A stretch of 64,000 nucleotides of DNA, taken from the NCBI GenBank assembly GCA_951812655.1, contig OX638319.1, positions 1,217,620-1,281,619 on the forward strand. Direction: 5' to 3'. Below are positions 7,485 through 25,270 of this stretch, piece after piece. Under the pieces are notes generated by a model. It saw only the letters and a program-made list of their open reading frames with translations. It made no database searches and was not told the DNA's origin. Position 1 is the first letter of the stretch, and each line of letters starts with the position of its first letter. A program made the position numbers and the translations under genes. The DNA comes from an uncultured Candidatus Nitrosopumilus sp. Lineage in GTDB: Archaea > Thermoproteota > Nitrososphaeria > Nitrososphaerales > Nitrosopumilaceae.

Positions 7485-8201
7485 TCACTTTAATTGAATT
7501 ACTGGTTCTCCTTTTCCAACTGGCATGATGATGTCTGCGGGTATTTCGATTTTTCTACCTTCTAGTGTAAGGATGACTCTTTTTGGAAGAATGAATGTGC
7601 CTTCTTCCACTGTCTCAATGCTGCCTACCTGTCCCACGTTATTTCCTCGTGTGACTAGTCCTTGAGAACCGACTTCTAATTTTATAACTTCTATAATTTT
7701 GACTTCTGGAATTTGTATCAAGCATGTATCTCCAACACTGACTTTTGTATCAGATATTATTGAACGCCCATCACTGAATCCTATTTGCATTTTTCCTTTG
7801 TTAACTGTGGTCTTACTTTTTACAGAAACTAGTTTTTTCGATTTTTCAGATTCATTAATTTTGATCGGCTTTAACATTTTATCTTCTGTGGGAACCATGC
7901 GATAGACGTCTTTGACGTTTTCAAGCTCTATCACATCCATTAATCCTATTCCGTGATGCAATGACTTTCTAACCATGCCGTCAATTTTCACCTTTCCTGA
8001 ATAGATTACTGTTTTTGCTTCCCTTAGACTGGTTACGATTTTTAGCGTATCTCTGAGAAATACGGCTGTAGGAATTGCTTGATTTTTTTTATGTGGTCCT
8101 GGTCTGACCGTAACCACAAATCTCTTGTCTTTTCTTGCTATTCCCCAGAACTGAGGTGCCATTTGACGTTTGAGTTTTTTACTACCTGAAATACTGACCA
8201 T
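7485..8201 (-). CDS. rps4e: Small ribosomal subunit protein S4e (eS4)
   Basis: The 238-residue archaeal/eukaryotic-type protein has an S4-like RNA-binding segment (about 40-100, including VFLRDTLKIVTSLREAKTV), a central domain, and a KOW-like element near VTRGNNVGQVGSI. S4e between L24 and L5 is diagnostic of Archaea. It overlaps rpl24 by one base. Confidence 0.96.
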   Translation of the reverse strand: MVSISGSKKLKRQMAPQFWGIARKDKRFVVTVRPGPHKKNQAIPTAVFLRDTLKIVTSLREAKTVIYSGKVKIDGMVRKSLHHGIGLMDVIELENVKDVYRMVPTEDKMLKPIKINESEKSKKLVSVKSKTTVNKGKMQIGFSDGRSIISDTKVSVGDTCLIQIPEVKIIEVIKLEVGSQGLVTRGNNVGQVGSIETVEEGTFILPKRVILTLEGRKIEIPADIIMPVGKGEPVIQLK

Positions 8202-8605
8202 TAACTTTCATCTTCCTTTACTTTGGTTTTATCTGCTACTTTTGTTTCTTTAGGAGACTGTTTGCTCTCTAGTTTTTTAATTCTCCACTTGTCTTCTGTA
8301 TTTAATGATGTAACTAGCAGATTTGATGTGTGAATGTAAACGTCGAATTTGTCTCCCTTTGTCTTTTCTTTCTTGACTCCTTCTATCGCAACGCTGTTCT
8401 TTGACGTGTCGACATTTGCAACTTTGCCATCAACGCCTTTGAATTCTCCCCTTAGAATTGTAACGCTGTCACCTTCAACAACTCTGACGCTTCTCTTGCC
8501 ATATTTTTTATGCAGATCTTTCGATAGTGCACTTCCAAGTTGCTTACTTTTTGTTTGGTAAGTTGCTTGGTAAATCATTTTGTTACGCATCTTTGTTGGC
8601 TTCAT
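8201..8605 (-). CDS. rpl24: Large ribosomal subunit protein L24 (uL24)
   Basis: A 134-residue protein with a KOW motif ([20 protein letters not shown]) and a charged Lys/Glu-rich C-terminal tail of about 30 residues. L24 is an assembly initiator protein near the exit tunnel. The first ATG is used here; an internal ATG at residue 6 is an alternative. It starts four bases after rpl14. Confidence 0.96.
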
Positions 8606-8609
8606 TTTG

Positions 8610-9032
8610 TCATACCACCGTTGATGCCAAGTTTGCGACTCTTGGCCATTTTTCTGATGCTTCTACAGCCACTGGTCCCTTGATGTCTGTACCTTTTGTT
8701 TCGCCTTCTGGGGTAATCAAAACTGCTGCATTATCTTCAAAACATACTCTAACTCCGTTTAGTCTGCGAACTGCGTATTTTTGCCTGACGATTACTGCGC
8801 CGTATACCTGTTTTCTTAGTTCAGCTGGACCTTTCTTTACGACGACATTGCAGAAGTCTCCTACTGATGCTGAAGGAAGTCTTGATGCTCTTGTTTTATG
8901 TCTTGGAACGTTGATTATCTCTAATATCTTGGCGCCTGAATTATCCGCACAAACTATGTTTGCGCCAACTGGCAATACCTTGGTTACATATGGTCTGAAT
9001 TCCTCTACTCCTTTACCTGCTTGTTTTGCCAT
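8610..9032 (-). CDS. rpl14: Large ribosomal subunit protein L14 (uL14)
   Basis: At 140 residues it contains the conserved L14 core ([18 protein letters not shown], then [13 protein letters not shown]). L14 lies at the subunit interface next to L19e or L3. Its start overlaps the stop of rps17 by one base. Confidence 0.97.
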
Positions 9033-9355
9033 TATTCTTTAACCTCCACTACCACGTATGAGACTGATTTTGAAAGTGGTCTGCACTCCGCAGCTATCAC
9101 ACGATCTCCAATTTCTACATCAATGCAATCGGGAACGTGTGCATGAATTGTACTTGTACCTCTTGCATATCTCTTAAACTTGCTAAAGTAGATTGGTGCA
9201 TCCTTTTGTAGTGTAATCGTTTGTTTGGCTTTGTTTCCTGTAACTTTCCCCTCGAAAAGCTTACCTCTAATTGATAAATTCCCACAAAATGGACAGTGTT
9301 TACCTGCACATTCTTTTGCAGGTGCTTTTACATCAAGTCCTATATTTCGTGTCAA
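9032..9355 (-). CDS. rps17: Small ribosomal subunit protein S17 (uS17)
   Basis: The 107-residue OB-fold protein has the archaeal CPFCGNLSIRGKLFEG opening and the S17 signature around VPDCIDVEIGDRVIAAECRPLSK. It binds the 5' domain of 16S rRNA. It overlaps the upstream rnp1 by four bases (ATGA type). Confidence 0.96.
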   Translation of the reverse strand: MTRNIGLDVKAPAKECAGKHCPFCGNLSIRGKLFEGKVTGNKAKQTITLQKDAPIYFSKFKRYARGTSTIHAHVPDCIDVEIGDRVIAAECRPLSKSVSYVVVEVKE

Positions 9356-9618
9356 ATTTTTCCTCCTATTCTGTCGAAGGGTCTTTTTGAAATTTCATTT
9401 CCATGTATTACGATGTTTTTATTTTGAATTGAAAATTTCCAATCGCTTGTATTCTTTGGAACTGATCTTGTTCCATTTTCTGTGTTGATCGTAAACATGG
9501 ATTTTGTTTCATTTATGACTCTTCCATTTAATCCTATGACTTGGGGATTGGTTGATCTGACGATCTTAGTTTCCAATCCTATGAATTCATGTGATCTTAT
9601 GTTCTCTGAGGTGATCAT
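9352..9618 (-). CDS. rnp1: Ribonuclease P protein component 1 (Rpp29/Pop4 homologue)
   Basis: This 88-residue protein has the Rpp29 Sm-like barrel: HEFIGLETKIVRS, then GLNGRVINETKSMF and VPKNTSDWKFSI. It is one of the archaeal RNase P proteins and helps the catalytic RNA mature tRNA 5' ends. Its place between L29 and S17 is the usual archaeal one. The SUI1 gene often found nearby is absent. It overlaps both neighbours by four bases. Confidence 0.94.
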   Translation of the reverse strand: MITSENIRSHEFIGLETKIVRSTNPQVIGLNGRVINETKSMFTINTENGTRSVPKNTSDWKFSIQNKNIVIHGNEISKRPFDRIGGKI

Positions 9619-9821
9619 TTCTTTTTCTTAATCTCCGTCATCTGTGTCATCATTCTTGCAATGTCATGACGCAACGGTCTGAGTTTGCCGCTTTCTTTCC
9701 TCAATGTGCCTTTAGATCCATCTACCTTGAGCTTTGCAAGCTCACTTTTAGTCTCTTGAATTTTACTGTGAAGATCTTTTTCGTTAAGATTTCTGATTGT
9801 CTTCATGCTTAATCTGGTCAT
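9615..9821 (-). CDS. rpl29: Large ribosomal subunit protein L29 (uL29)
   Basis: A 68-residue helical hairpin with the L29 signature [20 protein letters not shown]. It lies at the tunnel exit and contributes to the SRP docking site. It overlaps rps3 by four bases. Confidence 0.95.
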
Positions 9822-10624
9822 TTCAACACTGCCTCTTCTTCTTCTAGTGTCTCAATTTTTTCCATTTTCTTTTCTTCTAGTGCTATGACCTCTGATTCTG
9901 ATTTGGCCTCTTCTTTCTTTCCTTCAACTTTGACGACCTCTATTTTTTCATCACCAACTACTACCTCTTCAACCTTGACCTTCTTTGGTTCGTCTGCTTT
10001 CCCATTCTTGCTTTGTTTGACCTTCTTTTGGGTTTCTTGCTTCATTTCAAATTCTGGTACAAGTTTTTCTTTCTTGGCAATTCTTATTCTGATTCCAATT
10101 AATCCCATTGCGGTCTTTACATGTGCAATGTCTTCTGCTACAATCAACTCTGCGTGATGTCCTGCTCTTGGTAAGATGCCCTGTGTGTGTTTTTCAAATG
10201 CTGAACGATCACCTCTTAGTTTACCTGATATTGTAATTTGAACTCCCATTGCTCCGCCTTCCATGATTTGCTTTAATGTCCACATTGTTGCTCTTCTAAA
10301 CGCCGTTCCTCTTTCGAGATGTGATGCCATTCTGTTGCACATTACACTTGGTGCCAATTCCGGCTTTTCAATCTCAACTACTGAGATCTGGGGGTTTTTT
10401 AATCCGAAGTCTGTTGCAAGTTTTTCTGTTAGTGCTCGTATACCTGTACCTTTTCTACCTATGACGATACCTGGTCTTGTTACGTGTAATGCAACTCTGG
10501 TTCCGACGGGGGTTTTGGAAATTTCTGCGTGTGAGAATCCTGCATCTTTGATTGCATCTCTGAGATAATCTTTGAGTAGCATCATGTTGTAGTTGTCTTT
10601 GATTACGTTTTTCACTGCTGACAT
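9818..10624 (-). CDS. rps3: Small ribosomal subunit protein S3 (uS3) with long charged tail
   Basis: The 268-residue protein has an N-terminal type II KH domain (about 15-95, with [16 protein letters not shown]) and the S3 C-domain ([19 protein letters not shown]). From about residue 195 a Lys/Glu-rich low-complexity tail of about 70 residues follows, as in some archaeal S3 proteins. S3 lines the mRNA entry tunnel. It starts two bases after rpl22. Confidence 0.97.
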
Positions 10625-10626
10625 AT

Positions 10627-11094
10627 CTAAATCTCCTTTGCCACCAGCTCGACATGTGTTAAAACGTTATTTTTGGGAGTTGCTCTTCCCATCGCTCTTG
10701 GGGTGAATCTTTTTACAAGTACGCCTTTGTGAACTGTCGCATTTACAATTTTCAATCTGTCCAAATCCATTCCTTTGTATTCTGCATTTGATTCCAGATT
10801 GTCCAAAACCTTGATGAATTCTTTTGCTGTTTTTTGAGGGTATCGTCCTGCCATCATTCCTGGATCCGGTCGATGTCCTACTTGATTTTTGTATCGTCTA
10901 AATGCAACTGCCCTTTTCTTGTTAATCACATCCTGCAAATAGTCTCTGGCTTTTTCAATTGAAAGTCCCTTGATTGATACTGCGACCTCGCGGGCATGCT
11001 TGTGTGATATGTCTTTTTCTCTTAGTGATGAACGTACGTGTCTTGTTGCATCATAATTTTGGAAAGCATAATCGAATCTACCCATAATAATCAC
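10627..11094 (-). CDS. rpl22: Large ribosomal subunit protein L22 (uL22)
   Basis: The 155-residue archaeal L22 has the conserved [20 protein letters not shown] and the C-terminal signature with [10 protein letters not shown]. It lines the peptide exit tunnel. The chosen start is the first of two ATGs four codons apart (residue 4 is Met). It overlaps rps19 by four bases. Confidence 0.96.
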
Positions 11095-11486
11095 TTCAAT
11101 GGCACGTAAAGGCTGGATCTTGATGCGCCTACACCTGGAGCACCGTGTGAAACCTTTCTGTTTGTTATTGCATATTCTCCAAGATAATGTCCAATCATCT
11201 CTGTCGTGATTGTACGTGGGATGAATTCCTTTCCTGCGAAAATATTTACTGTAACGTCTACCATGTATGGCAGAATAATCAAGTCTCTAACATGTGTCTT
11301 GATGGGATTTTTTAGCTTGCCCGCTTTTGCAGCTTTAATCTCTTCGATTAGCTTCCTCTTCCCATCGGTAATTCCTCTTGTAAGTGATCTTCTTTGTCTG
11401 GAATTAAATAACAAAAATAATTTTTCTAGTGACAACTTATCAAGCTCTTCTTTTGGAATGCCTCTGTATGAAAATTCTTTAACCAT
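11091..11486 (-). CDS. rps19: Small ribosomal subunit protein S19 (uS19)
   Basis: At 131 residues, it carries the S19 core IKTHVRDLIILPYMVDVTVN, then GKEFIPRTITTEMIGHYLGEY. It sits in the 30S head beside S13. In archaeal operons rpl2 lies between rpl23 and rps19, but only 44 bases separate them here, so rpl2 has been lost from this position. Confidence 0.97.
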   Translation of the reverse strand: MVKEFSYRGIPKEELDKLSLEKLFLLFNSRQRRSLTRGITDGKRKLIEEIKAAKAGKLKNPIKTHVRDLIILPYMVDVTVNIFAGKEFIPRTITTEMIGHYLGEYAITNRKVSHGAPGVGASRSSLYVPLK

Positions 11487-11530
11487 CTCTATTCTCCTCT
11501 GTTAGTGTACTTCGAGTTCTATGGTCCATA

Positions 11531-11797
11531 TTATAGCATTCCTATCTTCGTTGCAAGATCCCTGGCTTTTTCTGTACTTTCAAACTGAACGAATGCCTTT
11601 TTACCGTAAATTGTTCTTGCGGTGTTTACTTTCTTTACATCTTCTTTGTAAAGTGCTTTAATCGCTTCCGCAATCTGTGGCTTGCTTGCAGATATCTCTA
11701 CGATGAAGCAGATCTTGCTTTCATTTTCGATCATTGCAAACGTCTTTTCGGTAATGTAAGGTTTGACAATTACTTTCATTGCTTGATCTACGTTCAT
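11531..11797 (-). CDS. rpl23: Large ribosomal subunit protein L23 (uL23)
   Basis: An 88-residue protein with the L23 motifs VIVKPYITEKTFAMIE and YKEDVKKVNTARTIYGKKAFV. It is the SRP and translocon docking site at the tunnel exit. It overlaps rpl4 by four bases. Confidence 0.96.
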   Translation of the reverse strand: MNVDQAMKVIVKPYITEKTFAMIENESKICFIVEISASKPQIAEAIKALYKEDVKKVNTARTIYGKKAFVQFESTEKARDLATKIGML

Positions 11798-12609
11798 TTT
11801 CTATTCACCATTAGTTCTAGATGTGTTGATTTAATTTTTCCAATTTCTTCAATTGCCGCTTTGGAATATACTGTTAATCTGATTGGTTCTGAACCTGGTG
11901 CCAAATCTAGCACGCTAAGTTCTTTTGCGTTTCTAACTTCGACTCCCGGGAATGCTCCTACTGCCTTCGAGAGGTTGGATGAGTTTGATGTAACGAACAA
12001 AACGCTCTTTCCAACTTTCTTGGTTCTTCCTCTGAGTCTTGATTGTCCGGAACGTGGTCTTCTTGATTCGAGTCTGTCAATGTCTTGTGAAAGTTTCAAT
12101 GATTCTAGAACTTTGGATATCTCACCTGCTTTTGAAATTGATTCGATATCATCAGATACTATGATTGGAAAAGATTCTATGCCTTCAATTTTGTGACCTC
12201 TTGCTTCCACGAGTTCTTTTGATGCGGTAGCTGCAATTGCTGAGCAAAGAGCAAGCTTATTCTCCTTCTTGTTTAGTTTTTTGTAGATTACCCTTTCGAC
12301 AATTGGCGGATGTGCTTGTCTTCCGCCTCTGGTGGATGCTACTTCAGCTCCTTGACCCTGCCTTCCTCCGCCGCCGCCTTGCATTCTTGCAACACGAGAA
12401 ACGCCTTGACCTGTTGGAGGATCATTGGAATCTGCTACGACATCCATTCCTGCATTTGGTTTTCTTCCCTGCCTTTGGAATTTATGTGATGTAAGGTTAG
12501 TGAAAGCTTTGTGAATTAACTCTCTTCTAAATGGGGTTGAGAATATTGGCGGAAGTTCAATTTCTGCGTCCTTTGTTCCGGAAGTTGAGTATGTTGCTCT
12601 TTTTGTCAT
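11794..12609 (-). CDS. rpl4: Large ribosomal subunit protein L4 (uL4)
   Basis: The 271-residue archaeal L4 has the Gly-rich extended loop around residues 75-100 (RMQGGGGGRQGQGAEVASTR) that reaches the exit tunnel, and a Rossmann-like C-terminal half. It overlaps rpl3 and rpl23 by four bases each. Confidence 0.97.
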   Translation of the reverse strand: MTKRATYSTSGTKDAEIELPPIFSTPFRRELIHKAFTNLTSHKFQRQGRKPNAGMDVVADSNDPPTGQGVSRVARMQGGGGGRQGQGAEVASTRGGRQAHPPIVERVIYKKLNKKENKLALCSAIAATASKELVEARGHKIEGIESFPIIVSDDIESISKAGEISKVLESLKLSQDIDRLESRRPRSGQSRLRGRTKKVGKSVLFVTSNSSNLSKAVGAFPGVEVRNAKELSVLDLAPGSEPIRLTVYSKAAIEEIGKIKSTHLELMVNRK

Positions 12610-13601
12610 ATCACTACCTCCAAGATGTTGGGTTTGGTGACTTTTACCGGGGCGTTTCTGATTTGACTTCTTAGCTTGATCAATCTCTTGTATGTTCCAG
12701 GAACTGAACCTTTCAAAATAATGAAGTCTCCTTTAACTAAGCCAAAGTGCTTGTATCCTCCATCGGGATTTATTTTGATTTCATCTGCATCGGTATTTCC
12801 CATTATCATAATTCTTTTGTCATATTCTACTCTCTGGTGGAATCCTGTCTGTCCTGCTCTAGGAACCGTATACATGACACTCTGGGGCGAGATTGGACCT
12901 AATGAACCGACCTCTCTTACTGTTTTTCTAGACTTGTGCTGTTTCTTTTTTACATTCCATCTTTTCATCACTCCTTGCCATCCGTGTCCTTTGGAAATAG
13001 CTGCAACATCTACTGATGCGCCCGTTTCAAAAATCTGATCAATCTTAATCTCTTTACCGAGTGACTCCTTTACGTGGGCAAATTGTTTTGCAATGTCTCC
13101 TCCACTTACAGATGCCTCAAAAATATACGGCTTTTTTTGCTCCAGACCTGCCGCTCTTGGAGACACCGCAACAATTGCAAAAATCTCCTTGATCTTCTTT
13201 AGTCTCTTTTCTGCATTTTCTAATGATCCCTCAATGTTTTTTATTGTAATTTCCTTTGCAATATTTTTTGGAATGTCTTCTGCATAGACATCAAATTCTG
13301 CATGTCTCCCATAGTTGTCCTTTGAATATCCCCTGATGCCCAAAACTAAAACTGGCGGTGTTACAAGCACTGTTCCGAGACTCACAAGCTGCTTTCCTGC
13401 GTTTGGTACCTTGTCTCTATCGTCAATGCTGACAATCTGAACGCATCCTGCTTTGAAACCGCAATGTGCTAAAATTTTTGGCTCTGCTGTTGCGTCTAGC
13501 TTTGGCCATGCTCTGATTCTGGCCTCCATAGTCTTTGCGCGTACTCTGCGTGAGTATGCTAGACTTCCTCTTCTTGGCGAGTGACGTTTTCGAGCTCCCA
13601 T
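12606..13601 (-). CDS. rpl3: Large ribosomal subunit protein L3 (uL3), first gene of the operon
   Basis: The 331-residue archaeal L3 begins with HSPRRGSLAYSRRVRAK and has the signature loop with GHGWQGVMKRW and VPRAGQTGFHQRVEYDKR. L3 reaches toward the peptidyl transferase centre. A TATA-like element (about 13632-13640) and an inverted repeat (13649-13678) lie just upstream, consistent with a promoter for the whole ribosomal operon down to rpl6. The upstream small gene ends at 13693. Confidence 0.97.
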   Translation of the reverse strand: MGARKRHSPRRGSLAYSRRVRAKTMEARIRAWPKLDATAEPKILAHCGFKAGCVQIVSIDDRDKVPNAGKQLVSLGTVLVTPPVLVLGIRGYSKDNYGRHAEFDVYAEDIPKNIAKEITIKNIEGSLENAEKRLKKIKEIFAIVAVSPRAAGLEQKKPYIFEASVSGGDIAKQFAHVKESLGKEIKIDQIFETGASVDVAAISKGHGWQGVMKRWNVKKKQHKSRKTVREVGSLGPISPQSVMYTVPRAGQTGFHQRVEYDKRIMIMGNTDADEIKINPDGGYKHFGLVKGDFIILKGSVPGTYKRLIKLRSQIRNAPVKVTKPNILEVVI

Positions 13602-13648
13602 GGTTAAACCGTATCCGCAAATTCCCTCTATTAAACCATGTGTAACAT

Positions 13649-13678
13649 CGTTAACCTGTTGATTTTTTGTGGTTAACG
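13649..13678. promoter_or_regulatory. Inverted repeat CGTTAACC-N14-GGTTAACG upstream of rpl3
   Basis: A perfect 8-bp inverted repeat with a 14-base spacer lies 48-77 bp upstream of the rpl3 start and about 9-13 bp upstream of a TATA-like GGTTTAATAG. The half-site and spacing match the dyad upstream of bioB (31540-31568) and resemble the published BirA operator pattern (TTGTAAACC-N14/15-GGTTTACAA). A shared regulator is an inference; why a biotin-type site should lie before ribosomal genes is unexplained. Confidence 0.55.
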
Positions 13679-13692
13679 ATCTATTGTGTTTT

Positions 13693-13803
13693 TCACGATT
13701 GCAGTATCTCTGATGCTGTATTCCATATTGTTATTGCACCGATGATGATCCCTACTATGCCCAAACCCACTGCCATAAGGTGGAAGTTCTTTTTTTCAGC
13801 CAT
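13693..13803 (-). CDS. 36-residue single-span membrane protein
   Basis: The ORF begins MAEKKNFHLMAVGLGIVGII and has one hydrophobic helix (about residues 9-27), with charged residues only at the N-terminus. Its ATG lies within the last codons of the SPOUT methyltransferase gene (8-base overlap), which strongly suggests translational coupling and therefore a real gene. It ends 91 bp before rpl3. No family is recognised. Short single-span proteins next to ribosomal and translocation genes can be SecG/Sec61-beta-like, but no such motif is visible. Confidence 0.7.
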   Translation of the reverse strand: MAEKKNFHLMAVGLGIVGIIIGAITIWNTASEILQS

Positions 13804-14617
13804 TTCTTTGTGTGTCTTGCATGTTGAGAATCGACAGCGTTCCGATCATTGCCTCCTCCAAACGTACTGTCTCTGTTGCTTGATTTGGAAAAAAGTTCAA
13901 TGATTTTGCATTTTGTACCTTGTTCATCTTTCCTCCGATGATCTCGTGTATTCCTTTTTCTGGAGATCCAAACACCACCAGTACCGGTTCGTCTATTTTG
14001 GTATACTTGGAAAGATGTTCTGCTGTTGCCGTCTTACCTTTTCTTGAGGTCATGATGATGTTTCCTTTCCACTCTGACAGTACAGAATACAGGTTTGCTC
14101 TTTCTTTCACCGAATAGCCCCAGTATCCCTGGACTTCACTCTTGTTGATTTCTTTTACCGATAGTCTTGGATGGCCTTCTTTGAATTGAACTGTAATTCT
14201 TTTTCCTACCTGCGTATTGCCGTAGTATTGAATGAGCTGGTTAATTCCGACGTCTACAAACCTTTTCCCTTTCACGCTGACTACTATCCCTTCTCTGATG
14301 TCTCCTCTGACGATCTTTTTTGAGTTTGACGGCGTCACATGACTTGCAATTCTCAGTGGCTGCAAAACCCCTGCAAACTTTAGATCATTCATTTTTGGAA
14401 ATAGCCTTCTTCTCAAAAACTGCGGTGTTTCAAGATATTTCAATATCATCACCATGAGGGCCCCGTCGTTTCTGCTTTTCCCTTCTTGGTAGACGTAGAT
14501 GGTATCGATTTTAAAAATTGCACATGCTCTGGCCAGAACGGAAATCTTTCTTGTCTTGTCTATCTTCAGTGATTCATCAGATAATGCGGATTCGGGAATG
14601 GCAACAGATAGTTTCAA
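13796..14617 (-). CDS. SPOUT-superfamily RNA methyltransferase (archaeal DUF171/COG2106 family)
   Basis: The 273-residue protein matches the archaeal family usually found next to rpl3. It has an N-terminal alpha/beta half (ISVLARACAIFKIDTIYVYQEG), an inserted OB-like domain (about 85-165) and a C-terminal knotted SPOUT half with VLVVFGSPEKGIHEI and the SAM-binding loop near NFFPNQATETVRLEEA. It probably methylates rRNA with SAM; the exact target base is not visible. It lies 29 bp after psmA and overlaps the small membrane gene at 13693. Confidence 0.88.
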   Translation of the reverse strand: MKLSVAIPESALSDESLKIDKTRKISVLARACAIFKIDTIYVYQEGKSRNDGALMVMILKYLETPQFLRRRLFPKMNDLKFAGVLQPLRIASHVTPSNSKKIVRGDIREGIVVSVKGKRFVDVGINQLIQYYGNTQVGKRITVQFKEGHPRLSVKEINKSEVQGYWGYSVKERANLYSVLSEWKGNIIMTSRKGKTATAEHLSKYTKIDEPVLVVFGSPEKGIHEIIGGKMNKVQNAKSLNFFPNQATETVRLEEAMIGTLSILNMQDTQRNG

Positions 14618-14646
14618 CGTTACTTATCTCTCATCCACTGAAATAT

Positions 14647-15393
14647 CTATTTTGGATCGTGTGGATATTTTTCTTTAGCAGAACTTGCATATTTTGTAAT
14701 TTGCTCGTCAGAAACAATATCGTATAACCCTGTCTCTTTCTTTATGCATGCCATTCTAATGTGGCTTGTTCCTTCCTTGTCTTCACTTGAAAGATAAATT
14801 CCTGCAGTGGCCAATGTTGCTGCATCATCTAATGTAAGATCATTTTTGTAAGTCTTTTCTAAAAAGTCTGTAACCTGCTCAGAACCTGAACCTATTGCAA
14901 TTGCATCATAAGAAATGTAGGTTCCGCTTGGATCAGTCAAGTACAATTCAGGCTTGTTGTTGACCACACCACCAAGAATAAGTGCTACACCGTAAGGTCT
15001 CACACCGGCATACTGGGTGTACTGTTGGCATTGATCTGCAAGATGCTTTGCAATTGTTTCAACTTCAACAGGTTCGTCATAGATCATCTTGTTGCTTTGA
15101 GAAAAGAATCTGGCATTGTCTACCTGGCTTCTTGCATCTGGAATGTATCCTGCTGCTGCAACTCCTACATGATCGTCAATCTGAAATATTTTTTGAGCCG
15201 TATTTGAAATCTGTAACTTTCTTGGTTTTTCTTCAACTGCGATTACGATTCCATCCTTGCACTTTACCCCGATAGCAATGGTTCCTCTTCGAACTGTCTC
15301 AATGGCATATTCGACTTGGTATAGTCTGCCATCTGGAGAAAACACTGTAATTGCTCTATCATAGCCTTGTTGTGCAGGAAGCATTTGATTCAA
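14647..15393 (-). CDS. psmA: 20S proteasome alpha subunit
   Basis: The 248-residue protein has the alpha-subunit N-terminal gate helix (GYDRAITVFSPDGRLYQVEYA), the alpha signature, and no N-terminal catalytic Thr. It forms the outer heptameric rings that gate entry to the protease and dock AAA unfoldases. Start is MNQMLP; the second Met, three residues later, is an alternative and nearer to other archaeal PsmA starts. Only 37 bp separate it from the divergent DUF371 gene, with a symmetric TATA-containing promoter between. Confidence 0.97.
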   Translation of the reverse strand: MNQMLPAQQGYDRAITVFSPDGRLYQVEYAIETVRRGTIAIGVKCKDGIVIAVEEKPRKLQISNTAQKIFQIDDHVGVAAAGYIPDARSQVDNARFFSQSNKMIYDEPVEVETIAKHLADQCQQYTQYAGVRPYGVALILGGVVNNKPELYLTDPSGTYISYDAIAIGSGSEQVTDFLEKTYKNDLTLDDAATLATAGIYLSSEDKEGTSHIRMACIKKETGLYDIVSDEQITKYASSAKEKYPHDPK

Positions 15394-15403
15394 TTGCTAA
15401 GAA

Positions 15404-15423
15404 TGTACAATTTAAACTGTACA
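15404..15423. promoter_or_regulatory. Symmetric bidirectional promoter between psmA and the DUF371 gene
   Basis: Two TGTACA palindromes (15404-15409 and 15418-15423) flank an AT core with TTTAAA, itself symmetric. In 37 bp this must serve both divergent genes. A symmetric TATA box could recruit TBP in either direction. Distances to the annotated starts are short for archaeal promoters, so one or both genes may start at their next in-frame ATG. Confidence 0.45.
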
Positions 15424-15430
15424 CACAATC

Positions 15431-15916
15431 ATGCCTGATCACTTCGATGATCGGAGCCTGAGAAACAAGCTTAATTTTAAACTGGGCGATTTTGAATTCA
15501 TGGAATTTGCAATAGAGTTTTCAGGCCATGAAAACATCAGATCAAATCATAAAAGTACGATTGAGATTACAAAGGAATCTCATCTTACGCCACGGGGTGA
15601 TTGCATCGTGGGAGTAAATGCAAATTCTAGCTGCAACGATCTACCTGATGAACTAAAAGAGAAGCTAAGAGATTCTGATGCCAAAGTGTCTGTCACGATT
15701 ACTGTGGGCGTTCATGTTTTTTCCATGCAAGGACGTGGTCATCCAGATCTGACACTTACGCATGAGGACGACATTGTGATTAGAAAGAGCGATTTTGTAT
15801 GTCCTAGAACCTTGATCGTCAGATGTGACAAGGCATCTGATCTGTTGCCTAGAAAAATGGTTTCGTTGCTGCAGAATCCAAAATCCAAAGGTGTTCTTAG
15901 AATTGCAGTCGACTGA
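15431..15916 (+). CDS. DUF371 domain protein
   Basis: The 161-residue product contains the archaeal DUF371 domain from about residue 24: EFAIEFSGHENIRSNHKSTI, ITKESHLTPRGDCIVGVNA, then VHVFSMQGRGHPDLTL. The domain is widespread in Archaea, but its biochemical role is not known to me. An ATG at 15500 would remove a 23-residue N-terminal extension and give the usual family length; it also fits the promoter spacing better. It is divergent from psmA. Confidence 0.85.
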   Translation: MPDHFDDRSLRNKLNFKLGDFEFMEFAIEFSGHENIRSNHKSTIEITKESHLTPRGDCIVGVNANSSCNDLPDELKEKLRDSDAKVSVTITVGVHVFSMQGRGHPDLTLTHEDDIVIRKSDFVCPRTLIVRCDKASDLLPRKMVSLLQNPKSKGVLRIAVD

Positions 15917-15955
15917 CAATGTGACAATTTTATACCCATGTGTCAGGTGTCGATC

Positions 15956-16075
15956 ATGGGTCTTAAAACCAAAATTTTCCTCTTGATTCCTCTGAGTGCT
16001 TTTGCAGCACTGATTTTGGGAGCTGGCATGTATCTTACTTTGTGCAAAAACTCCATGGTTCCTCTTGGATGCTAG
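15956..16075 (+). CDS. 39-residue membrane micro-ORF, probably the 5' part of a frameshifted gene
   Basis: The ORF starts MGLKTKIFLLIPLSAFAALI and holds one membrane span (about 7-28). It ends in an unconvincing tail. The -1 frame at the same place continues as YFVQKLHGSSWMLADL and then runs on to 16212. A single -1 shift, for example at the CAAAAAC run near 16044, would fuse a membrane anchor to that soluble segment. So this is either a real micro-gene, a gene with an indel, or a programmed frameshift. Confidence 0.45.
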   Translation: MGLKTKIFLLIPLSAFAALILGAGMYLTLCKNSMVPLGC

Positions 16076-16212
16076 CTGATTTACAGCCAAAAACACATTC
16101 CGACAATGTGCGTTCTGATGATCTGCAGATGAGTTTCATGATTAGTTTTGATGAAATGCGAGAAGTTTATCGTAATGGTTTAGCTAATAATGATTCAGCA
16201 AGATTTTCTTAA
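16069..16212 (+). CDS. 47-codon ORF continuing the frameshifted membrane gene
   Basis: This frame opens with ATG at 16069, overlapping the TAG of the preceding ORF (ATGCTAG). The product is polar (LQPKTHSDNVRSDDLQMSF) and looks like the outer or cytosolic part of a small anchored protein. Read upstream past the ATG it stays open and coding-like back to about 16036. Whether it is translated separately by re-initiation or by frameshift cannot be told. Confidence 0.4.
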   Translation: MLADLQPKTHSDNVRSDDLQMSFMISFDEMREVYRNGLANNDSARFS

Positions 16213-16225
16213 GGTACTGTTTTTG

Positions 16226-16576
16226 ATGAACGTCATGGTGAAGTCCAGAATAGAACTGTCAGTACCAAAGAAACCTACGGCTGATGAACTGTTACAAATC
16301 CAAAAATACTTTGATGAAATGCCCGTTTCAGAAATTCTTACCGGACTGAAATTTGCAAAGAGCAGGTGGATTGCAAAGGATGCCGGAACGCTGAAGGTTG
16401 GCAGAAAGAGTATCATCCAAAAAGAAGTGCATTCTGTAACTGTAGAGCAGGCCCAATGGAGATTAAAGAACTGGAAGATGATGATTGCAAACTACAGAAG
16501 ACGAGGGTACAGCTATCCTACAATTTCTCGAATAAAGAAAATTCTGGCTGAAAAAAGTGAAGCACAACAAGCGTGA
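16226..16576 (+). CDS. Conserved hypothetical basic protein
   Basis: About 116 residues from the ATG at 16226; the longer frame begins at 16190 but overlaps the previous ORF. It is helical and basic, with the segment EQAQWRLKNWKMMIANYRRR near the C-terminus and no membrane span. The Arg/Lys-rich character and aromatic residues could suit nucleic-acid binding, which is speculation. I recognise no family. Confidence 0.6.
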   Translation: MNVMVKSRIELSVPKKPTADELLQIQKYFDEMPVSEILTGLKFAKSRWIAKDAGTLKVGRKSIIQKEVHSVTVEQAQWRLKNWKMMIANYRRRGYSYPTISRIKKILAEKSEAQQA

Positions 16577-16765
16577 TGGGTAAAACAAAATTAAACTCTG
16601 GTTTCTTTCACGAATGCGAGTTGAAAGACGTTCACTGTGTCTGACGCTGTGTCTCCTTATCATTGTAAAATTAAATCATCATCATTCTGCATTACAAAAA
16701 ATTTTGATAGAAAACTATGTGTTACAAAAACAATATGTAATGCATCTGCAAAAACACCAATCTAA

Positions 16766-16975
16766 TTATTCTACGTGAAGCGTAACGACAATCTCTGTTT
16801 GGTCTTTATTCAGATCATCATCCAGGGCAATTTTTTTGTCAAGAAGTTTGAATTCCTCTATGAGGGAGCCGTCTTCGTTGAAGGTTCTGACCATCTTGCT
16901 TTTTGGCAGGACCGACACGTCGCTTGAATCATGATACACCTTAATCGAATCTCCCTTCTCTATTATTATCTTCAA
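16766..16975 (-). CDS. Small conserved hypothetical protein
   Basis: A 69-residue, beta-rich acidic protein (MKIIIEKGDSIKVYHDS at the start, TEIVVTLHVE at the end) with no Cys and no signal peptide. It is isolated between unrelated genes. Clean start and coding-like composition support it; function is unknown. Confidence 0.6.
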   Translation of the reverse strand: MKIIIEKGDSIKVYHDSSDVSVLPKSKMVRTFNEDGSLIEEFKLLDKKIALDDDLNKDQTEIVVTLHVE

Positions 16976-17238
16976 TCTGCTGACATGTGACGTTGTGATA
17001 ATAAAAATTAAGATTATGTTCTCTGGTGATGGTGCGTGCCTCCCACTGAATTGGATTGGCTGACTTTCATGCCTGTGCCGTCAGAAAAAAATCAGTATTT
17101 CTGATTATCTGAGTCCATTTGCATTTCGTCATGATTTTCGGTGACGTGTATCTTGGCATTTGAAATCTGTTTTTTGTTTCAGTTATCAATTTTGTTTTCT
17201 TTTATAGTATGTTTCAGTACTCATCATGATTTAGAATT

Positions 17239-17400
17239 ATGAGCAATGTGTCATGTCCCAACTGTAGCATGGTTTTTTTCGATAGTGTGCGGTTGGACCG
17301 ACACGTAAAAAAAGCTCATCCTGCAAAACGTAGAACTGAGTCAAGACCGTCAACGAGTTTTAATCATTCTGACATCAACTATACGCACTTTTCGATGTAA
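17239..17400 (+). CDS. 53-residue C2H2 zinc-finger mini-protein
   Basis: The ORF contains one classical C2H2 finger, C6-x2-C9-x12-H22-x4-H27, in CPNCSMVFFDSVRLDRHVKK, followed by a basic, Ser-rich tail. Spacing and the hydrophobic core positions (F14, L20) fit a folded finger. A single finger with a basic tail could bind DNA, RNA or protein. Related single-finger micro-genes lie at 34586 and 50062. Confidence 0.75.
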   Translation: MSNVSCPNCSMVFFDSVRLDRHVKKAHPAKRRTESRPSTSFNHSDINYTHFSM

Positions 17401-17538
17401 TGGCGTGTGTATGATGGCTGTAGATGACAACAATCATGTTGTCTGTTTTGCAGTTTACTTCTGATCCTTGCAAATAAAATCACTGAATCCTGAATTTGTT
17501 TTCCAATTCCTTGTCGTACTGTATGATGCATATCATGA

Positions 17539-18111
17539 TCAAGCATTGACTTGTAGCCAGTCTAAAATTTCAAAAATGTGTTTGTCAGGTGGAAATATCG
17601 GATAAAATACCTTCACTATCTTGGAATTTTTTATTATGAGTGTAAGTCTCTTGTACATCACTGTGTTCTCTACTTGAAACACAGGAATGTTCAGTTCCTG
17701 TTTCAGTTTCAAATCGCTATCGGATAAAACGTGTTGAGATAGATGTCTTGTCAAAGATATCTTCGACAAATCACGAATTGACTGGGTCGAAATCCCGATG
17801 GGAATGGCTCCATGTCTTGACAATTCATCTAGATGTTCGTTGATTGCGATGTTTTGGGGAGTGCAGCCACGTGCACCTGGAATTTTGTCCCATTCTTCAG
17901 AAATGCTTCCTTCTGAAACGGCCATCATCGGAAAAAAATACAGAACTACAAAATTTGCTTCAATCCTGCCGATATCGACCATGTTTCCTTTTGTGGATGG
18001 AAGAATTATGGCTGGCATCTCTGTTTCTGAAAGGTGATCACATTCCCCGTTATCATCTGGACGTGGCAAATTCTTGGGCAGTTCTGTAAAATTCATACTC
18101 GTTTGGTCCAT
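17539..18111 (-). CDS. Peroxiredoxin (AhpC/TSA-like)
   Basis: The 190-residue thioredoxin-fold protein has strands ANFVVLYFFP before the active-site loop and C83 in PGARGCTPQNIA, matching the peroxidatic Cys of PrxQ/BCP-like enzymes (GCTPQ). It would reduce hydrogen peroxide or organic peroxides using a thioredoxin-like donor. The C24 in NGECDH is too far forward to be a usual resolving Cys, so a 1-Cys mechanism is possible. Start is MDQTSMNF; residue 6 is an alternative Met. Confidence 0.85.
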   Translation of the reverse strand: MDQTSMNFTELPKNLPRPDDNGECDHLSETEMPAIILPSTKGNMVDIGRIEANFVVLYFFPMMAVSEGSISEEWDKIPGARGCTPQNIAINEHLDELSRHGAIPIGISTQSIRDLSKISLTRHLSQHVLSDSDLKLKQELNIPVFQVENTVMYKRLTLIIKNSKIVKVFYPIFPPDKHIFEILDWLQVNA

Positions 18112-18257
18112 GAGATCTGTATTTTATATGTAGAATTATTTCTTGTAATCTTTCACGTTTGACGTGATCATGATCACTTGTGTGACGTGGGATTATACGC
18201 GTTGGCAGAAATTCATGGTGATTGTTTTAGTTAGTTTTCATATACAAAAATGGGAGT

Positions 18258-18551
18258 TTACTCATCTACAATATTGTAGACTTGTAGATTTGGATGTTCT
18301 GATAGCATTGGCATGAGTTTTTCCAACGAACCGTTCTCTATTCTCCATTCCATGTATTTTTTCTGCGCCTCTTCGGAAGTCCATTTAGAATGGATGGTCA
18401 TCTTTGTTGGCGATTCTTTGCTCTCATACAGCTGAACCCCCTGGCATCCCTCAAAAGATCGCGTGTCTGGAAGAATTTCTTTGAAGTATTTCTTCAGTTC
18501 CTCGGCGGAATCTTCTTTCACATCAAGACTGACAGTCACAATGACACTCAT
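18258..18551 (-). CDS. Antibiotic biosynthesis monooxygenase (ABM) domain protein
   Basis: The 97-residue ferredoxin-like protein has the ABM pattern: strand VIVTVSLDVKEDS, helix ELKKYFKEILPDTRSFEGC, strand VQLYESKESPTKMTIHSKW, then helix AQKKYMEWR. Family members act as small cofactor-free monooxygenases or haem-degrading enzymes; the substrate here is unknown. A decayed second copy of its centre seems to lie about 200 bp upstream. Confidence 0.85.
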   Translation of the reverse strand: MSVIVTVSLDVKEDSAEELKKYFKEILPDTRSFEGCQGVQLYESKESPTKMTIHSKWTSEEAQKKYMEWRIENGSLEKLMPMLSEHPNLQVYNIVDE

Positions 18552-18608
18552 TGCTTTTAACCAAAGTCTCTTGAATTTAAGTAGTTACACAAAGACAAAA
18601 AATATTTT

Positions 18609-18700
18609 TTAAAATCTCATGCATATGGCACCATCTTGATGATGAACCTGGCATCCCTCAAAAGAATCGCGTGGCGCTCTGACTTGATTCGCTAGCCGCA
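18609..18700 (-). pseudogene. Fragment of a second ABM gene
   Basis: Bases 18647-18673 repeat 18440-18465 of the ABM gene almost exactly (one inserted A). In the matching frame the fragment reads DSFEGCQVHH and soon ends at a TAA at 18609-18611. Upstream similarity to the ABM protein is weak. This looks like the remnant of a local duplication. Confidence 0.4.
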
Positions 18701-18774
18701 AACTGTTGAAAAACGTCCTTGTTTGTTTTTCAATCTTTGTGGATTGGTGACGTCTTCACATCTGCTACATTATA

Positions 18775-18790
18775 TGGGAATCATTTCCCA
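18775..18790. promoter_or_regulatory. Dyad TGGGAA-N4-TTCCCA upstream of glutamine synthetase
   Basis: A perfect 6-bp inverted repeat lies 51-66 bp upstream of the glnA ATG and just upstream of a TATA-like GATATATT (about 18803-18810). Its core GGAA...TTCC recalls the methanogen NrpR operator (GGAA-N6-TTCC), but the spacer is 4 rather than 6 and NrpR is not known in Thaumarchaeota. A nitrogen-responsive site is an inference. Confidence 0.4.
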
Positions 18791-18840
18791 ATGAATGTTC
18801 AAACGATATATTCAACTTGATGTAATAGCATGTGAAAGAC

Positions 18841-20211
18841 ATGACTTCCGCCAAAACAGTTCTAGACAAAATAAAAAAATCAAAAATAAAATGGATTAGG
18901 CTGCAGTTTTGCAATCCTTTCGGACTGATGCACCAGCTTAGCATCGCTTCACATGAAATCACCAAAGAATCATTCCTGCATGGATTTCCTCTGGATGGAA
19001 GCTCAATTACCGGATTTACCGACATCGAAAAATCCGACATTATACTGGTTCCAGATTCAGATACATTTGAGATTCTGCCCGACTTTTTTGACACTGATGA
19101 CACTGAGATGGCATATGTCTCTAGGGCTGCCCGTATGTTTGCATCCGCACGGTACGGTTACGAACAAAAAGAATTCTCTCGTGACTCTAGGTCCATAGCC
19201 AAAAAAGCAGAAGGCTTTGCAAAAAAAAGTGGTTTTGACAGAACCTATTGGTCTGCAGAGCTGGAGTTCTTTGTATTTGACAAAACGTTCCAACATCAAA
19301 ACAACAATGCACATATAATTTCAAAAGAGGCTCCCTGGGTATGCAATACTGAGGATCGAATCGATTTCAAAAGGGGATACTACAGGGATTCCCCATCTGA
19401 CGCACTGGTAAATTTCCGAGACGAGGTATGCGACATTTTGCTTGAGAACTTTAAGATAAGAACAATTGCACATCATCACGAGGTTGCTACGGCAGGACAA
19501 AGCGAGATAGTACTGTCTCACGCCGGTCTGGTGGATATGGCTGACAGCTTTGTCACCGGGGTAAAGACAATTCGCGAGGTGGCATCAAGGAGGGGAAAAA
19601 ATGCAGTTTTCAATCCAAAGCCCATGCCTGAGGACAACGGTTCTGCAGTACACATCAACCAGAGCCTTTGGAAACGCAGCAAGGAAAAGGAATCCAACGC
19701 GTTCTATGACGCTTCTGACAAGTATGCAGAACTGAGCCAGACTGCCCACTACTACATAGGTGGATTGCTGACCCATGCAAGGGCACTTTGTGCAATTACC
19801 AATCCAACTTCACAATCATACAAGAGGCTGGTTCCAGGATACGAGGCACCCACAAACATTGCATGGGGAAAGATGAATCGCACCGTCAGCGTCAGAGTCC
19901 CTGCACACAACAAAGCCCGGCCTGAGACCAAGAGAATAGAATACAGGCCACCCGATCCCACGTCCAACGTCTACCTTGTAGAATCTGCACTGCTGCTTGC
20001 AGGTCTTGACGGAATCAAAAAGAAAATTCAGCCTCCCGACCCTGTGGACGTAAACACCTACAAGTTTTCGCCACGCGAAATGAAAAAGTTTTCAGTTGAA
20101 AAGCTTCCCACCTCCCTGAAAGAATCATCCGATGCTTTTGGTTCAGACAATGACTTTCTAAAGCCTGTGTTTGAGGATGATTTCCTTGACATGTATCTGA
20201 AGAACCTGTAA
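18841..20211 (+). CDS. glnA: Glutamine synthetase
   Basis: About 456 residues of the GSI type. Visible motifs include LDGSSITGF near the N-terminus, the metal-binding EHHHEV-like region (IAHHHEVATAGQSEI), the glutamate/ATP loop NPKPMPEDNGSAVHIN, and the C-terminal RIEYRPPDPTSNVYL. It makes glutamine from glutamate, ammonia and ATP and is the main entry of ammonia into biomass in ammonia oxidisers. The adenylylation Tyr motif of GSI-beta enzymes is not visible. A GTG at 18832 in the same frame is an alternative start. The transcript probably ends at the T-run at about 20223-20230. Confidence 0.96.
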   Translation: MTSAKTVLDKIKKSKIKWIRLQFCNPFGLMHQLSIASHEITKESFLHGFPLDGSSITGFTDIEKSDIILVPDSDTFEILPDFFDTDDTEMAYVSRAARMFASARYGYEQKEFSRDSRSIAKKAEGFAKKSGFDRTYWSAELEFFVFDKTFQHQNNNAHIISKEAPWVCNTEDRIDFKRGYYRDSPSDALVNFRDEVCDILLENFKIRTIAHHHEVATAGQSEIVLSHAGLVDMADSFVTGVKTIREVASRRGKNAVFNPKPMPEDNGSAVHINQSLWKRSKEKESNAFYDASDKYAELSQTAHYYIGGLLTHARALCAITNPTSQSYKRLVPGYEAPTNIAWGKMNRTVSVRVPAHNKARPETKRIEYRPPDPTSNVYLVESALLLAGLDGIKKKIQPPDPVDVNTYKFSPREMKKFSVEKLPTSLKESSDAFGSDNDFLKPVFEDDFLDMYLKNL

Positions 20212-20741
20212 TCAAAGCCGCCTGTTTTTTAATTGTCCGAAAACTGAACACGCTTTTGAAATTTGTTTTTCGTCTGCTTGCATGAGTTTAATGAGATCTC
20301 GTTTTTGAAATTACCAGTTCGATAAAAGATGATCAATGATTCAGACAACTGTGCTAACACCGAGAATGCCGTTGCTAGGAAAATTCCGTGCTCTGCAAAT
20401 GACCTGACGGGGAAAACGGAGTTTTGTCAGAAAGGAATATCTTGTAAAGCGTATCTAGTCTTGCGAACGTTTTCTCTAAACTCGTTGAAATGCTTCATAT
20501 CGTTGTATGATTCAGGTGCTCATTTGTTAATATTTACAGAACATTCCAGTTCTAAAATACTTCAAATGCTTTACCTTCACGTTCAGCTAAGATCCAAGTC
20601 TGTCCGCTGGCAATCTCGCAACTTGGCTCGTCTCAGATCTCCGGAACTCATGTCAAACTAGCTGACTTTGGCTGTCTCGCCACTAACATTGGTCAACTGC
20701 GCGACAAGATCCTGTATCACCTTCAACTGCTCAAGCGTTAT
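20212..20741. other. 530-bp gap without a convincing gene
   Basis: A plus-strand frame of 110 codons is open from 20329 to 20661, but its composition (Leu/Ser-rich, no folded pattern, no recognisable motif) does not convince. A short T-run follows glnA. No RNA gene was seen. A lineage-specific gene or decayed gene remains possible. Confidence 0.4.
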
Positions 20742-20999
20742 CTAGATCATCATCTGGAGCTGCCTTTGCAGGTCGTTGTTTCGTTCCTGCAATTCTGCGT
20801 TCTCTGCTCTGAGAACGTTGATCTCCTGTTCTGGTGTAAGTTCTCCTATGACGAATTCTGAATTGCCCTCTGCATCCGTCACCCAATGACCGCCACCACC
20901 CCACGCATTGGGAACAATCGCCTGATACAGTCCAAGCGCGACAAACGCGATACCTGCCACCATTATCAGGATTGCCTTGGGTCGTGGTGCGAGATGCAT
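20742..20999 (-). CDS. Single-span membrane protein with C-terminal coiled coil
   Basis: An 85-residue protein with a basic N-terminus, a membrane helix at about 8-28, a short Gly-rich outer loop (NAWGGGGHW), and a C-terminal coiled coil (about 53-85) with heptad leucines and many Glu/Gln. The overlapping longer frame at 20731-21021 is Arg-rich and not credible. The coiled coil suggests oligomerisation or a partner protein; function is unknown. Confidence 0.7.
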   Translation of the reverse strand: MHLAPRPKAILIMVAGIAFVALGLYQAIVPNAWGGGGHWVTDAEGNSEFVIGELTPEQEINVLRAENAELQERNNDLQRQLQMMI

Positions 21000-21177
21000 G
21001 ATCTGAACTTCCTATTCCCATAGTTAAGTTTCACGATTCATGAAAATCCCTAACGGTGTATTTGGAACAGTGCTTGCAATTCTGTTTTTACATCTGGTAT
21101 TAGTGTGGTCTTGCCTATTTTCTTTTGAGCCGTTATGAAAACAATGCTTAAAAGTAAATTCTGAGAGCATATTGGAA

Positions 21178-21306
21178 ATGAAAATCAGCTTCAAAATTCA
21201 AGTGGTGATTTTTGTCGCAGTTGTCGTCGCAGTGATGATTGGAATGTATGCAGATTGTGGGAGCCTTCTGAAGGTGAAATGTCACAAGGTGATTCTGCAA
21301 AGATGA
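21178..21306 (+). CDS. 42-residue membrane micro-ORF, possibly frameshifted
   Basis: The ORF starts MKISFKIQVVIFVAVVVAVM, a single membrane span, then loses protein-like character. Another frame across the same bases reads EPSEGEMSQGDSAKM, a typical acidic linker after a membrane anchor, and continues to a stop near 21380. As with the ORF at 15956, a one-base indel after the membrane helix may have broken a small anchored protein. Confidence 0.45.
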   Translation: MKISFKIQVVIFVAVVVAVMIGMYADCGSLLKVKCHKVILQR

Positions 21307-21417
21307 CAACTAACTCACCACGTCATTGTGATGTCTGCCTGCGACTGTTCATCCATAGTTTTTCCGTGGTGATTAAATGAAGAAGAAAGATAAGACGTTG
21401 TAAATTACTACTCACAA

Positions 21418-21942
21418 ATGAGGAGGATCATTCTCAACATAGTGTGTAGTCTTGATGGATACATTGCAAGAAAAGACGGAAGTGTTGATTGGCTGCCCAC
21501 TGGAGACGATGACTTCGGAATGGGGAAATTCATGGAATCTGTGGATACTGTACTGTTGGGCAGGACCACATACGAGCAAATCCTGTCATTTGATTGCGAT
21601 TATCCATATGCAGATAAGAAAACCTATGTGTTTTCAAGAAATTCAAACTTGACAAACACAGAAAACGTAGAATTCATCTCAGAATTGGTGGATTTTTCCA
21701 AAGAGATGGCCAAATCATCTGGAAAAGACATCTGGCTGGTGGGTGGGGCAGAGATAATTTCCGTTTTCCTAAAAGAGGGTTTAATTGATGAGGTTGTCCT
21801 GTCCATGGTGCCAGTTACGATAGGCAGCGGTATTTCTTTGTTTAAGGATGTGAACAAGGACATTAAATTTAAAATTCTTGAAACAGTTGAACACTCTGGT
21901 TTGACACAATTGTGTCTTAGTGTATGTTCTCAAAGCAAATGA
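21418..21942 (+). CDS. Dihydrofolate reductase-family protein (RibD C-terminal domain type)
   Basis: The 174-residue protein shows the RibD_C/DHFR-like layout: ILNIVCSLDGYIARKDGSVD with the family DGYIA motif, LLGRTTYEQI for NADPH phosphate binding, IWLVGGAEIISVFL for the GG-containing nucleotide loop, and DEVVLSMVPVTIGSGISLF. It is an NADPH-dependent reductase; stand-alone members of this family act on unknown substrates. It is monocistronic. Confidence 0.88.
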   Translation: MRRIILNIVCSLDGYIARKDGSVDWLPTGDDDFGMGKFMESVDTVLLGRTTYEQILSFDCDYPYADKKTYVFSRNSNLTNTENVEFISELVDFSKEMAKSSGKDIWLVGGAEIISVFLKEGLIDEVVLSMVPVTIGSGISLFKDVNKDIKFKILETVEHSGLTQLCLSVCSQSK

Positions 21943-22244
21943 CAGTTTCTTACAATTGGAAAAACGAAATAGTGGATTGGAGAATGAACCTGCAGATGGA
22001 AGAGAATTCTACAATGACCGTGTTAATGAATACGATATCCAAATGCTCTCATTTCCTGATTTCATTATTGCAAAAATGATGGGTTGCACTCAACCAGAAA
22101 CCATGCCAAAGTAGACGAATCTGACAAAAAAGACGTAAAGATAGAATTCTAATCATATTTCATGATCTTCCTTGGGGTTGTGAAAAAACTATGTGTATTC
22201 TATTTGTTAAAAAACCAAATATGAAAAATCAAGAATTTCGTAAA
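21943..22244. other. Intergenic stretch with a motif shared with 24410-24438
   Basis: No clear gene is present; a plus-strand frame to 22114 overlaps the end of the reductase and is not convincing. Bases 22161-22188 (CATGATCTTCCTTGGGG then TTGTGAAAAAA) match 24410-24438 at about 24 of 29 positions. The last 60 bases are A-rich. Confidence 0.4.
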
Positions 22245-22280
22245 TTAAAAAAAATAAAAAAGTCCCAACCGTGGTTGGAG
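22245..22280 (-). terminator. Intrinsic-type terminator of the spondin-domain gene
   Basis: On the minus strand, directly after the TAG of the gene, CCAACC-AC-GGTTGG forms a 6-bp GC-rich stem followed by GACTTTTTTATTTTTTTTAA. A hairpin plus U-tract this close to the stop is the clearest terminator in the window. Confidence 0.7.
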
Positions 22281-22281
22281 A

Positions 22282-23019
22282 CTATCTCATTCGCACAATG
22301 TCTATTTTGACTACCGGACCATCCCATCCGTGAGCTCTCTGCGATAGATCGTCATCGCCAAAGATTCCTGGATGTGGAATGATTACTCCGTCTTCGGCAA
22401 TTGCGGCATTGGTGGCTCCTGTTCCTTTGTCACTGGAACTCACTCCGGACTCAGCAGCGCATGGGGGAACCAAGTCCGCAAGGTCCTCGGTATTCATCTC
22501 CGTTCTAACGTCAAATGCTTTTGCATAGACTGTCTTTTCGTTGTAGTATGGAAGCCTTACTGAATCAATTCCGGCGATTCCGTCGTTTGTACAAACCAGC
22601 ATGCTTGCAAAGGAGAGGTATCTAGTTTTTGCATCAGCTGAAACCGTAAAGGTCTCAGAATATTGCAAGTCCGTATCTCCTGGATCATTTGCCGGAACCA
22701 AGTGCCCAACTGAACCCTTGACAACGTCCATGACTCCCGACTTGCCTTCTAGCTTCTCAATTAGGAGGCTGGCATTTCCATTCTCAGCTAGTTGTTGGAG
22801 CTCATCAGAGGCTTTCTCTCCGACAGTGAACAGGCTGACATCTTTTGAATGCGTTACCAGAAGCGGAGGAGTAATTGGCTGGCCTGGAGTGATGTTGGTC
22901 ACAGTCACCTCGTACATCTGCTGCTTTGCTGCATTAGACTCTGGAATTCCCGCAACCCCTACCGCTAGCATCGCTATTAGCGCAGTCATTGCAAAAATTC
23001 CTGTCTTTTTTGTTTTCAT
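22282..23019 (-). CDS. Secreted spondin-domain protein
   Basis: The mature protein of about 215 residues follows a signal peptide (MKTKKTGIFAMTALIAML then a cut near SNAAK). The body matches Spondin_N: YEVTVTNITPGQPITPPLLV, then SLFTVGEKASDELQQLAENG, and ASMLVCTNDGIAGIDSVRLP. Secreted or surface-bound and probably metal-binding via acidic residues, as known for spondin domains. The start at the second Met gives a cleaner signal peptide than the Met five codons upstream (23034). Its role in archaea is unknown; adhesion is a guess. Confidence 0.85.
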   Translation of the reverse strand: MKTKKTGIFAMTALIAMLAVGVAGIPESNAAKQQMYEVTVTNITPGQPITPPLLVTHSKDVSLFTVGEKASDELQQLAENGNASLLIEKLEGKSGVMDVVKGSVGHLVPANDPGDTDLQYSETFTVSADAKTRYLSFASMLVCTNDGIAGIDSVRLPYYNEKTVYAKAFDVRTEMNTEDLADLVPPCAAESGVSSSDKGTGATNAAIAEDGVIIPHPGIFGDDDLSQRAHGWDGPVVKIDIVRMR

Positions 23020-23034
23020 TAACCAAGAAATCAA

Positions 23035-23364
23035 AAAAAATCACAATAAGCATTTGTCCAAGTTAGGCCCCAATCTATGTTCAAAAAACCAAAAACCATC
23101 AAAACTACGTAATCCTGGTATAGATTACGCAACAATCTGGGAATGATTGTATGATCTATTTCTCAAAATTATGATGATCTTTTTCCACGATTAATCTATG
23201 CCTAGATTTTAAACTGTCTATAGTTTTGAATATTATGATGTTATGTCAAATCAAATATAATTGAAATGTCATAATGGGTTCTCCATATTTTATATGACTT
23301 TTAAAAAATTCTGTGTTTCCATAATCACATAAGCTACCATGATTGTTTCTTAGTGAAAATTGCA
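23035..23364. other. 330-bp AT-rich gap with one 7-bp dyad
   Basis: No gene seen. CGTAATC and GATTACG (23108-23114 and 23123-23129) are an exact inverted repeat with an 8-base spacer, about 90 bp upstream of the spondin-domain start and possibly a regulator site. Confidence 0.35.
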
Positions 23365-23658: not shown

Positions 23659-23828
23659 GATTGTTGAAGAAAAGATCATGTTAGTTCTTAAGATCAGAAA
23701 CTGGCAAGTATTCTTATGACAGTTCTGACACTTGCTTTGAATATGTGAGAATTGTATTTAGGAGATGCTGATGGTTTGCATGTACAAATGATTAGTGCTG
23801 GTTATATTCATTATGAGATTACATAGAT

Positions 23829-25166: not shown

Positions 25167-25177
25167 TCGTCACCCTT

Positions 25178-25197: not shown

Positions 25198-25270
25198 TAG
25201 GGCTACAAAATATCCATGATGAGTTATTATACTGTAAACAAAAAAAGGAAAAGAACAGACTACATGTATG

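Follow-up and report, generated by a model that had tools for sequence, protein, structure and literature searches.

The window, by which we mean the whole 64,000-nucleotide stretch from an uncultured Candidatus Nitrosopumilus sp. analysed here, carries a cluster of ribosomal-protein genes headed by rpl3 as well as genes for biotin synthesis. A similar inverted repeat stands upstream of rpl3 and of bioB, and the features relevant to these two promoters are as follows:

7485-12609, minus strand: genes for L4, L23, S19, L22, S3, RNase P p29, S17, L14, L24 and S4e (Pfam, ORFs)
12606-13601, minus strand: rpl3, which opens the cluster and encodes ribosomal protein L3 (Pfam Ribosomal_L3)
13629-13635, minus strand: TATA-like box TTTAATA of rpl3 (by reading; position kept in relatives)
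13650-13677, minus strand: dyad GTTAACC-N14-GGTTAAC upstream of rpl3, candidate BirA operator (pattern scan and conservation)
29397-30536: bioF, after bioB (ORF)
30520-31497, minus strand: bioB, biotin synthase (Radical_SAM and BATS)
31519-31528, minus strand: TATA-like stretch TTTTATAAAT of bioB (by reading)
31540-31568, minus strand: dyad GTTAACC-N15-GGTTAAC upstream of bioB, candidate BirA operator (pattern scan)
31571-32887, minus strand: bioA-like aminotransferase gene, whose end lies immediately before the bioB operator (ORF; named from gene context and cross-locus similarity by tblastn)

Ribosomal genes continue on the same strand past S4e to about position 5834, and from their orientation and spacing we assume that rpl3 through S4e and beyond form a single transcript. 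In many archaeal clusters rpl2 sits between L23 and S19; in the window these two genes (11531-11797 and 11091-11486, respectively) leave only 11486-11531 between them, into which rpl2 (L2) does not fit. In four relatives (L3 of G111, G129, G147 and G133; loci L164 and L167-L169) the matches to rpl3 break near residue 275 within a longer frame of 376-386 aa, which suggests an insertion in these L3 proteins.

On the plus strand, positions 13649-13678 read CGTTAACC-N14-GGTTAACG, so that the arms extend to 8 bp, exactly where the earlier note had placed the repeat. Read along the minus strand, the dyad is followed after 14 bp by the TTTAATA box (13635-13629) and, 27 bp further on, by the ATG at 13601. 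A scan of the window for GTTAACC-N13..17-GGTTAAC returned the copy at rpl3 and the N15 copy at 31540-31568 before bioB and nothing else, in agreement with the earlier note, in which no further pair of this kind was noticed, and 100 dinucleotide-preserving shuffles of the window yielded no such dyad. In the complete genome (G000, 1,672,661 bases in one contig) exact dyads with spacers of 13-16 occur solely at rpl3 and bioB, the reversed-pattern control with the same spacers has no match, and allowing two mismatches adds three sites, each within a coding ORF. The two dyads had also been said to occupy the same position relative to the TATA box, which holds approximately: the distance from arm to TTTA is 14 bp at rpl3 and 12 bp at bioB.

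Across relatives, the site before rpl3 is kept with one spacing and in one position. Counting up to two mismatches to the N14 dyad, it is found 73-78 bases ahead of the start codon in 76 of 80 named rpl3 loci (it is missing from L111, L113, L114 and L115), and it is present in 71 of the 75 genomes of the same genus. The check for conservation before rpl3 orthologues that the earlier note had proposed thus comes out in favour of its idea. Chance resemblance, conceivable for a dyad with just 14 fixed bases, is refuted by this conservation of arms and position and by the controls with shuffled sequence or reversed pattern, which give no or almost no matches, and retains practically no probability.

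When both promoters are considered, 60 of the 75 genomes of the genus, in a sample in which many assemblies are incomplete, have both sites, 11 the rpl3 site only, none the bioB site only and four neither. Nor is the motif scattered at random in these genomes, where 106 of 108 exact dyads lie at rpl3 or bioB; one of the other two belongs to a second, fragmentary bioB (G112) and the other is in G148. Across the family, 105 of 250 scanned genomes contain exact dyads, and all 32 dyad-bearing loci examined (the own genome included) have them before bioB or other bio genes or before rpl3. Outside the family, exact matches are about as rare as those of reversed-pattern controls (4 vs. 6, family f8). 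In six genomes from sister genera (G178, G179, G237, G214, G216 and G231) the site at bioB has the classic GTAAACC form, and the corresponding position before rpl3 is without a dyad. The rpl3 promoters of L151-L153, L156 and L158 (genera g14, g16 and g17) lack the upstream dyad and carry a lone GGTTAAC half-site after the TATA box (TATATAATGGGGTTAAC).

The substitution pattern of the site was derived from changes per column, counted along a tree comprising 76 rpl3 genes. Taken together, the 14 arm columns have 11 changes, 10 of them at the arms' innermost bases, compared with about 17 per column in the spacer and left flank, 11.5 at third codon positions and about 9 in the stretch to the TATA box; among 100000 draws of 14 spacer or flank columns none had fewer than 189 changes. 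The bases directly adjacent to the arms changed 16 times each, while the T and A two bases outside the arms (13679 and 13648), which are likewise conserved, changed once each. On this phylogenetic count, the rpl3 dyad is shown to be a putative operator under strong purifying selection, and the conserved TNGTTAACC-N14-GGTTAACNA has the pattern of a protein contact. An RNA hairpin or a terminator of the upstream gene, to which the self-complementary arms and the position of the dyad after a small ORF of the same orientation (its stop, by eye, near 13694) might point, is disfavoured because changes in the arms are uncompensated: among 98 distinct rpl3 sites, 22 carry a change confined to one arm, one is altered in both arms without a match between them, and not a single compensated pair occurs. 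Identical arms before bioB, beside different genes, and the conservation of the outer T and A beyond a free base further argue against this explanation, which we regard as very improbable.

The published signal of the biotin protein ligase and repressor BirA is TTGTAAACC-[N14/15]-GGTTTACAA (PMC545781). The rpl3 dyad matches it, except that each half differs at one position (A/T) and at the free base beside it. A motif of this kind before biotin genes is likewise found, at 31540-31568 before bioB in the window and before bioB in relatives. The sole BPL match in the genome is a 338-aa protein with HTH_11, BPL_LplA_LipB and BPL_C domains, that is, with the N-terminal HTH, ligase and C-terminal domains of a group II biotin protein ligase. 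Its best matches in the PDB are full-length HTH-bearing BirA proteins, the closest being S. aureus BirA-type entries. It shares these domains with other group II enzymes such as B. subtilis BirA (PMC4016012), and DNA binding and ligase activity of the archaeal protein are predicted.

Presence of the operator follows presence of the HTH. Six genomes from five genera (G041, G249, G019, G162, G244 and G245) encode a ligase without recognisable HTH and have the site at neither promoter, and a seventh HTH-poor genome (G005) agrees with this absence. The operator was found in 15 of 17 HTH-bearing and in none of six HTH-less genomes (Fisher's P = 2.8e-4, ignoring relatedness), in a small sample for which genomes were chosen partly for missing motifs; the two exceptions, G129 and G133, have kept the HTH and have the dyad at neither promoter. 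As seen at the BirA loci L215, L221-L223, L225 and L228, several lineages have lost the HTH or have none that can be recognised, and each of them lacks the bioB and rpl3 operators. In genomes with the rpl3 site only, the HTH is still more conserved than the catalytic part (e.g., 0.91 vs. 0.69 in G097). The proposal of a common regulator for bioB and rpl3 thus gains support from an encoded HTH-bearing biotin ligase and from the absence of the operators where the HTH is lost.

A different winged-helix regulator might instead recognise the dyad before rpl3, and perhaps also the one before bioB. This would be in line with the two genomes that have an HTH and no dyad and with flanking positions and spacers that differ between the promoters: unlike the rpl3 sites, the bioB sites of the genus show no conservation of the outer T and A, and their spacer can be either N14 or N15. 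However, the 7-bp arms are identical at both promoters, the arm variants GTTAACT and AGTTAAC are tolerated at both, the motif fits the BirA signal, and the site is lost together with the HTH of BirA, so that we consider another regulator unlikely. Because of the fit of the motif and its co-occurrence with the HTH, the rpl3 dyad is probably an operator to which the HTH-bearing BirA would bind, which would place the ribosomal-protein operon under the control of BirA and biotinyl-AMP.

In L026-L033 (genus g14), bioA and bioB point away from each other on either side of the dyad, so that one operator may serve both promoters; in the window both genes have the same orientation. The distance between rpl3 and bioB is often about 8-18 kb, as in the window (13650-31568) and in G012, G014, G045, G050, G084, G089 and G092. 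No site was detected in the region upstream of birA (best match with five mismatches) or in the gap between bioA and bioD (best match with three mismatches).

The system resembles the bacterial BirA regulon in its near-identical half-sites and spacing, in an operator before bioB and in an HTH-bearing biotin ligase, but differs from it in that a ribosomal-protein operon is an apparent target; the targets described in the cited reports are biotin genes and, in Desulfovibrionales, also fatty-acid genes (PMC545781; PMC5343134). A nutrient sensor that acts on the expression of ribosomal proteins has a parallel in Zur, although the control by Zur concerns single ribosomal paralogues and zinc rather than the head of a large ribosomal-protein cluster (PMC9825181).

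In B. subtilis, operator binding by BirA requires both biotin and ATP (PMC4016012). By analogy with the bacterial protein, a BirA dimer loaded with biotinyl-5'-AMP would bind the dyad when biotin is plentiful and the carrier protein of the carboxylase is already charged, and would leave it while occupied with charging the apo-carrier. Occupancy of the rpl3 promoter would in this analogy report the biotinyl-AMP left unconsumed by apo-carrier protein, and transcription of the ribosomal proteins would track the cofactor and the degree of charging of the carbon-fixing acyl-CoA carboxylase.

Such control could be of either sign. Bacterial BirA is a repressor of bio operons (PMC545781; PMC5343134), and the archaeal BirA might likewise bind and repress rpl3, with derepression at a high level of apo-carrier, i.e., during active production of the carboxylase. 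In some genera (G057, G006) the bioB operator and its TATA box are only a few bp apart, which would suit occlusion. Among archaeal TrmB-family regulators, on the other hand, activation is more often associated with a site upstream of BRE/TATA and repression with one past it (PMC4158304). With TATA boxes called by pattern matching, the distance from arm to TATA at rpl3 is 14 bp in 139 entries and 15 bp in 14 (some genomes being counted twice, in two collections), while at bioB it varies between a few bp and about 50, and the near-fixed distance at rpl3 suggests a stereospecific contact. Release of ribosome synthesis under biotin shortage would, moreover, make little sense. Repression of rpl3 by BirA is the leading alternative and a serious possibility that we do not favour. 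The rpl3 site directly precedes BRE/TATA with little variation in distance, as do the sites of the archaeal activators TrmBL1, Tgr, Ptr2 and TFB-RF1, whose protein families are unrelated to BirA (PMC4158304), and we therefore lean slightly towards activation by analogy.

Eleven genomes have kept the rpl3 operator and lost the one at bioB (G097, G098, G099, G102, G107, G108, G111, G125, G149, G151 and G154), and in nine genomes with a lost bioB operator no site was found within 1.5 kb of bioB. In the Nitrosopumilus/Nitrosarchaeum group the candidate BirA site is thus apparently more persistent before the ribosomal operon than before bioB. As the operator is kept at rpl3 where that at bioB is gone, rpl3 may be the main target of BirA, and it is conceivable, at close to even chances, that BirA in this group is chiefly a regulator of ribosome synthesis, through which the charging of the carboxylase would determine how many ribosomes are made, perhaps by activation.

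BirA signals in Archaea were reportedly described in a Genome Research paper in 2002. The type of regulator and the operator are known, and the ribosomal target is, as far as we searched, unreported: among the open-licence papers searched, mostly as titles and abstracts, we recognised none that describes a BirA site before ribosomal genes, and an earlier mention is possible. We know of no case in which BirA acts as an activator, and activation at rpl3, if true, would be a new mode for this protein. To our knowledge, little has been established on how archaea set their production of ribosomes. An operator shared by rpl3 and bioB at the head of the ribosomal cluster of ecologically important archaea implicates a regulator whose ligand is known, and growth control in ammonia-oxidizing archaea thereby becomes testable. 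It suggests that growth capacity is set by biotin or by the charging of the carboxylase, and that these cells tie the building of ribosomes to the cofactor of their carbon-fixing carboxylase.
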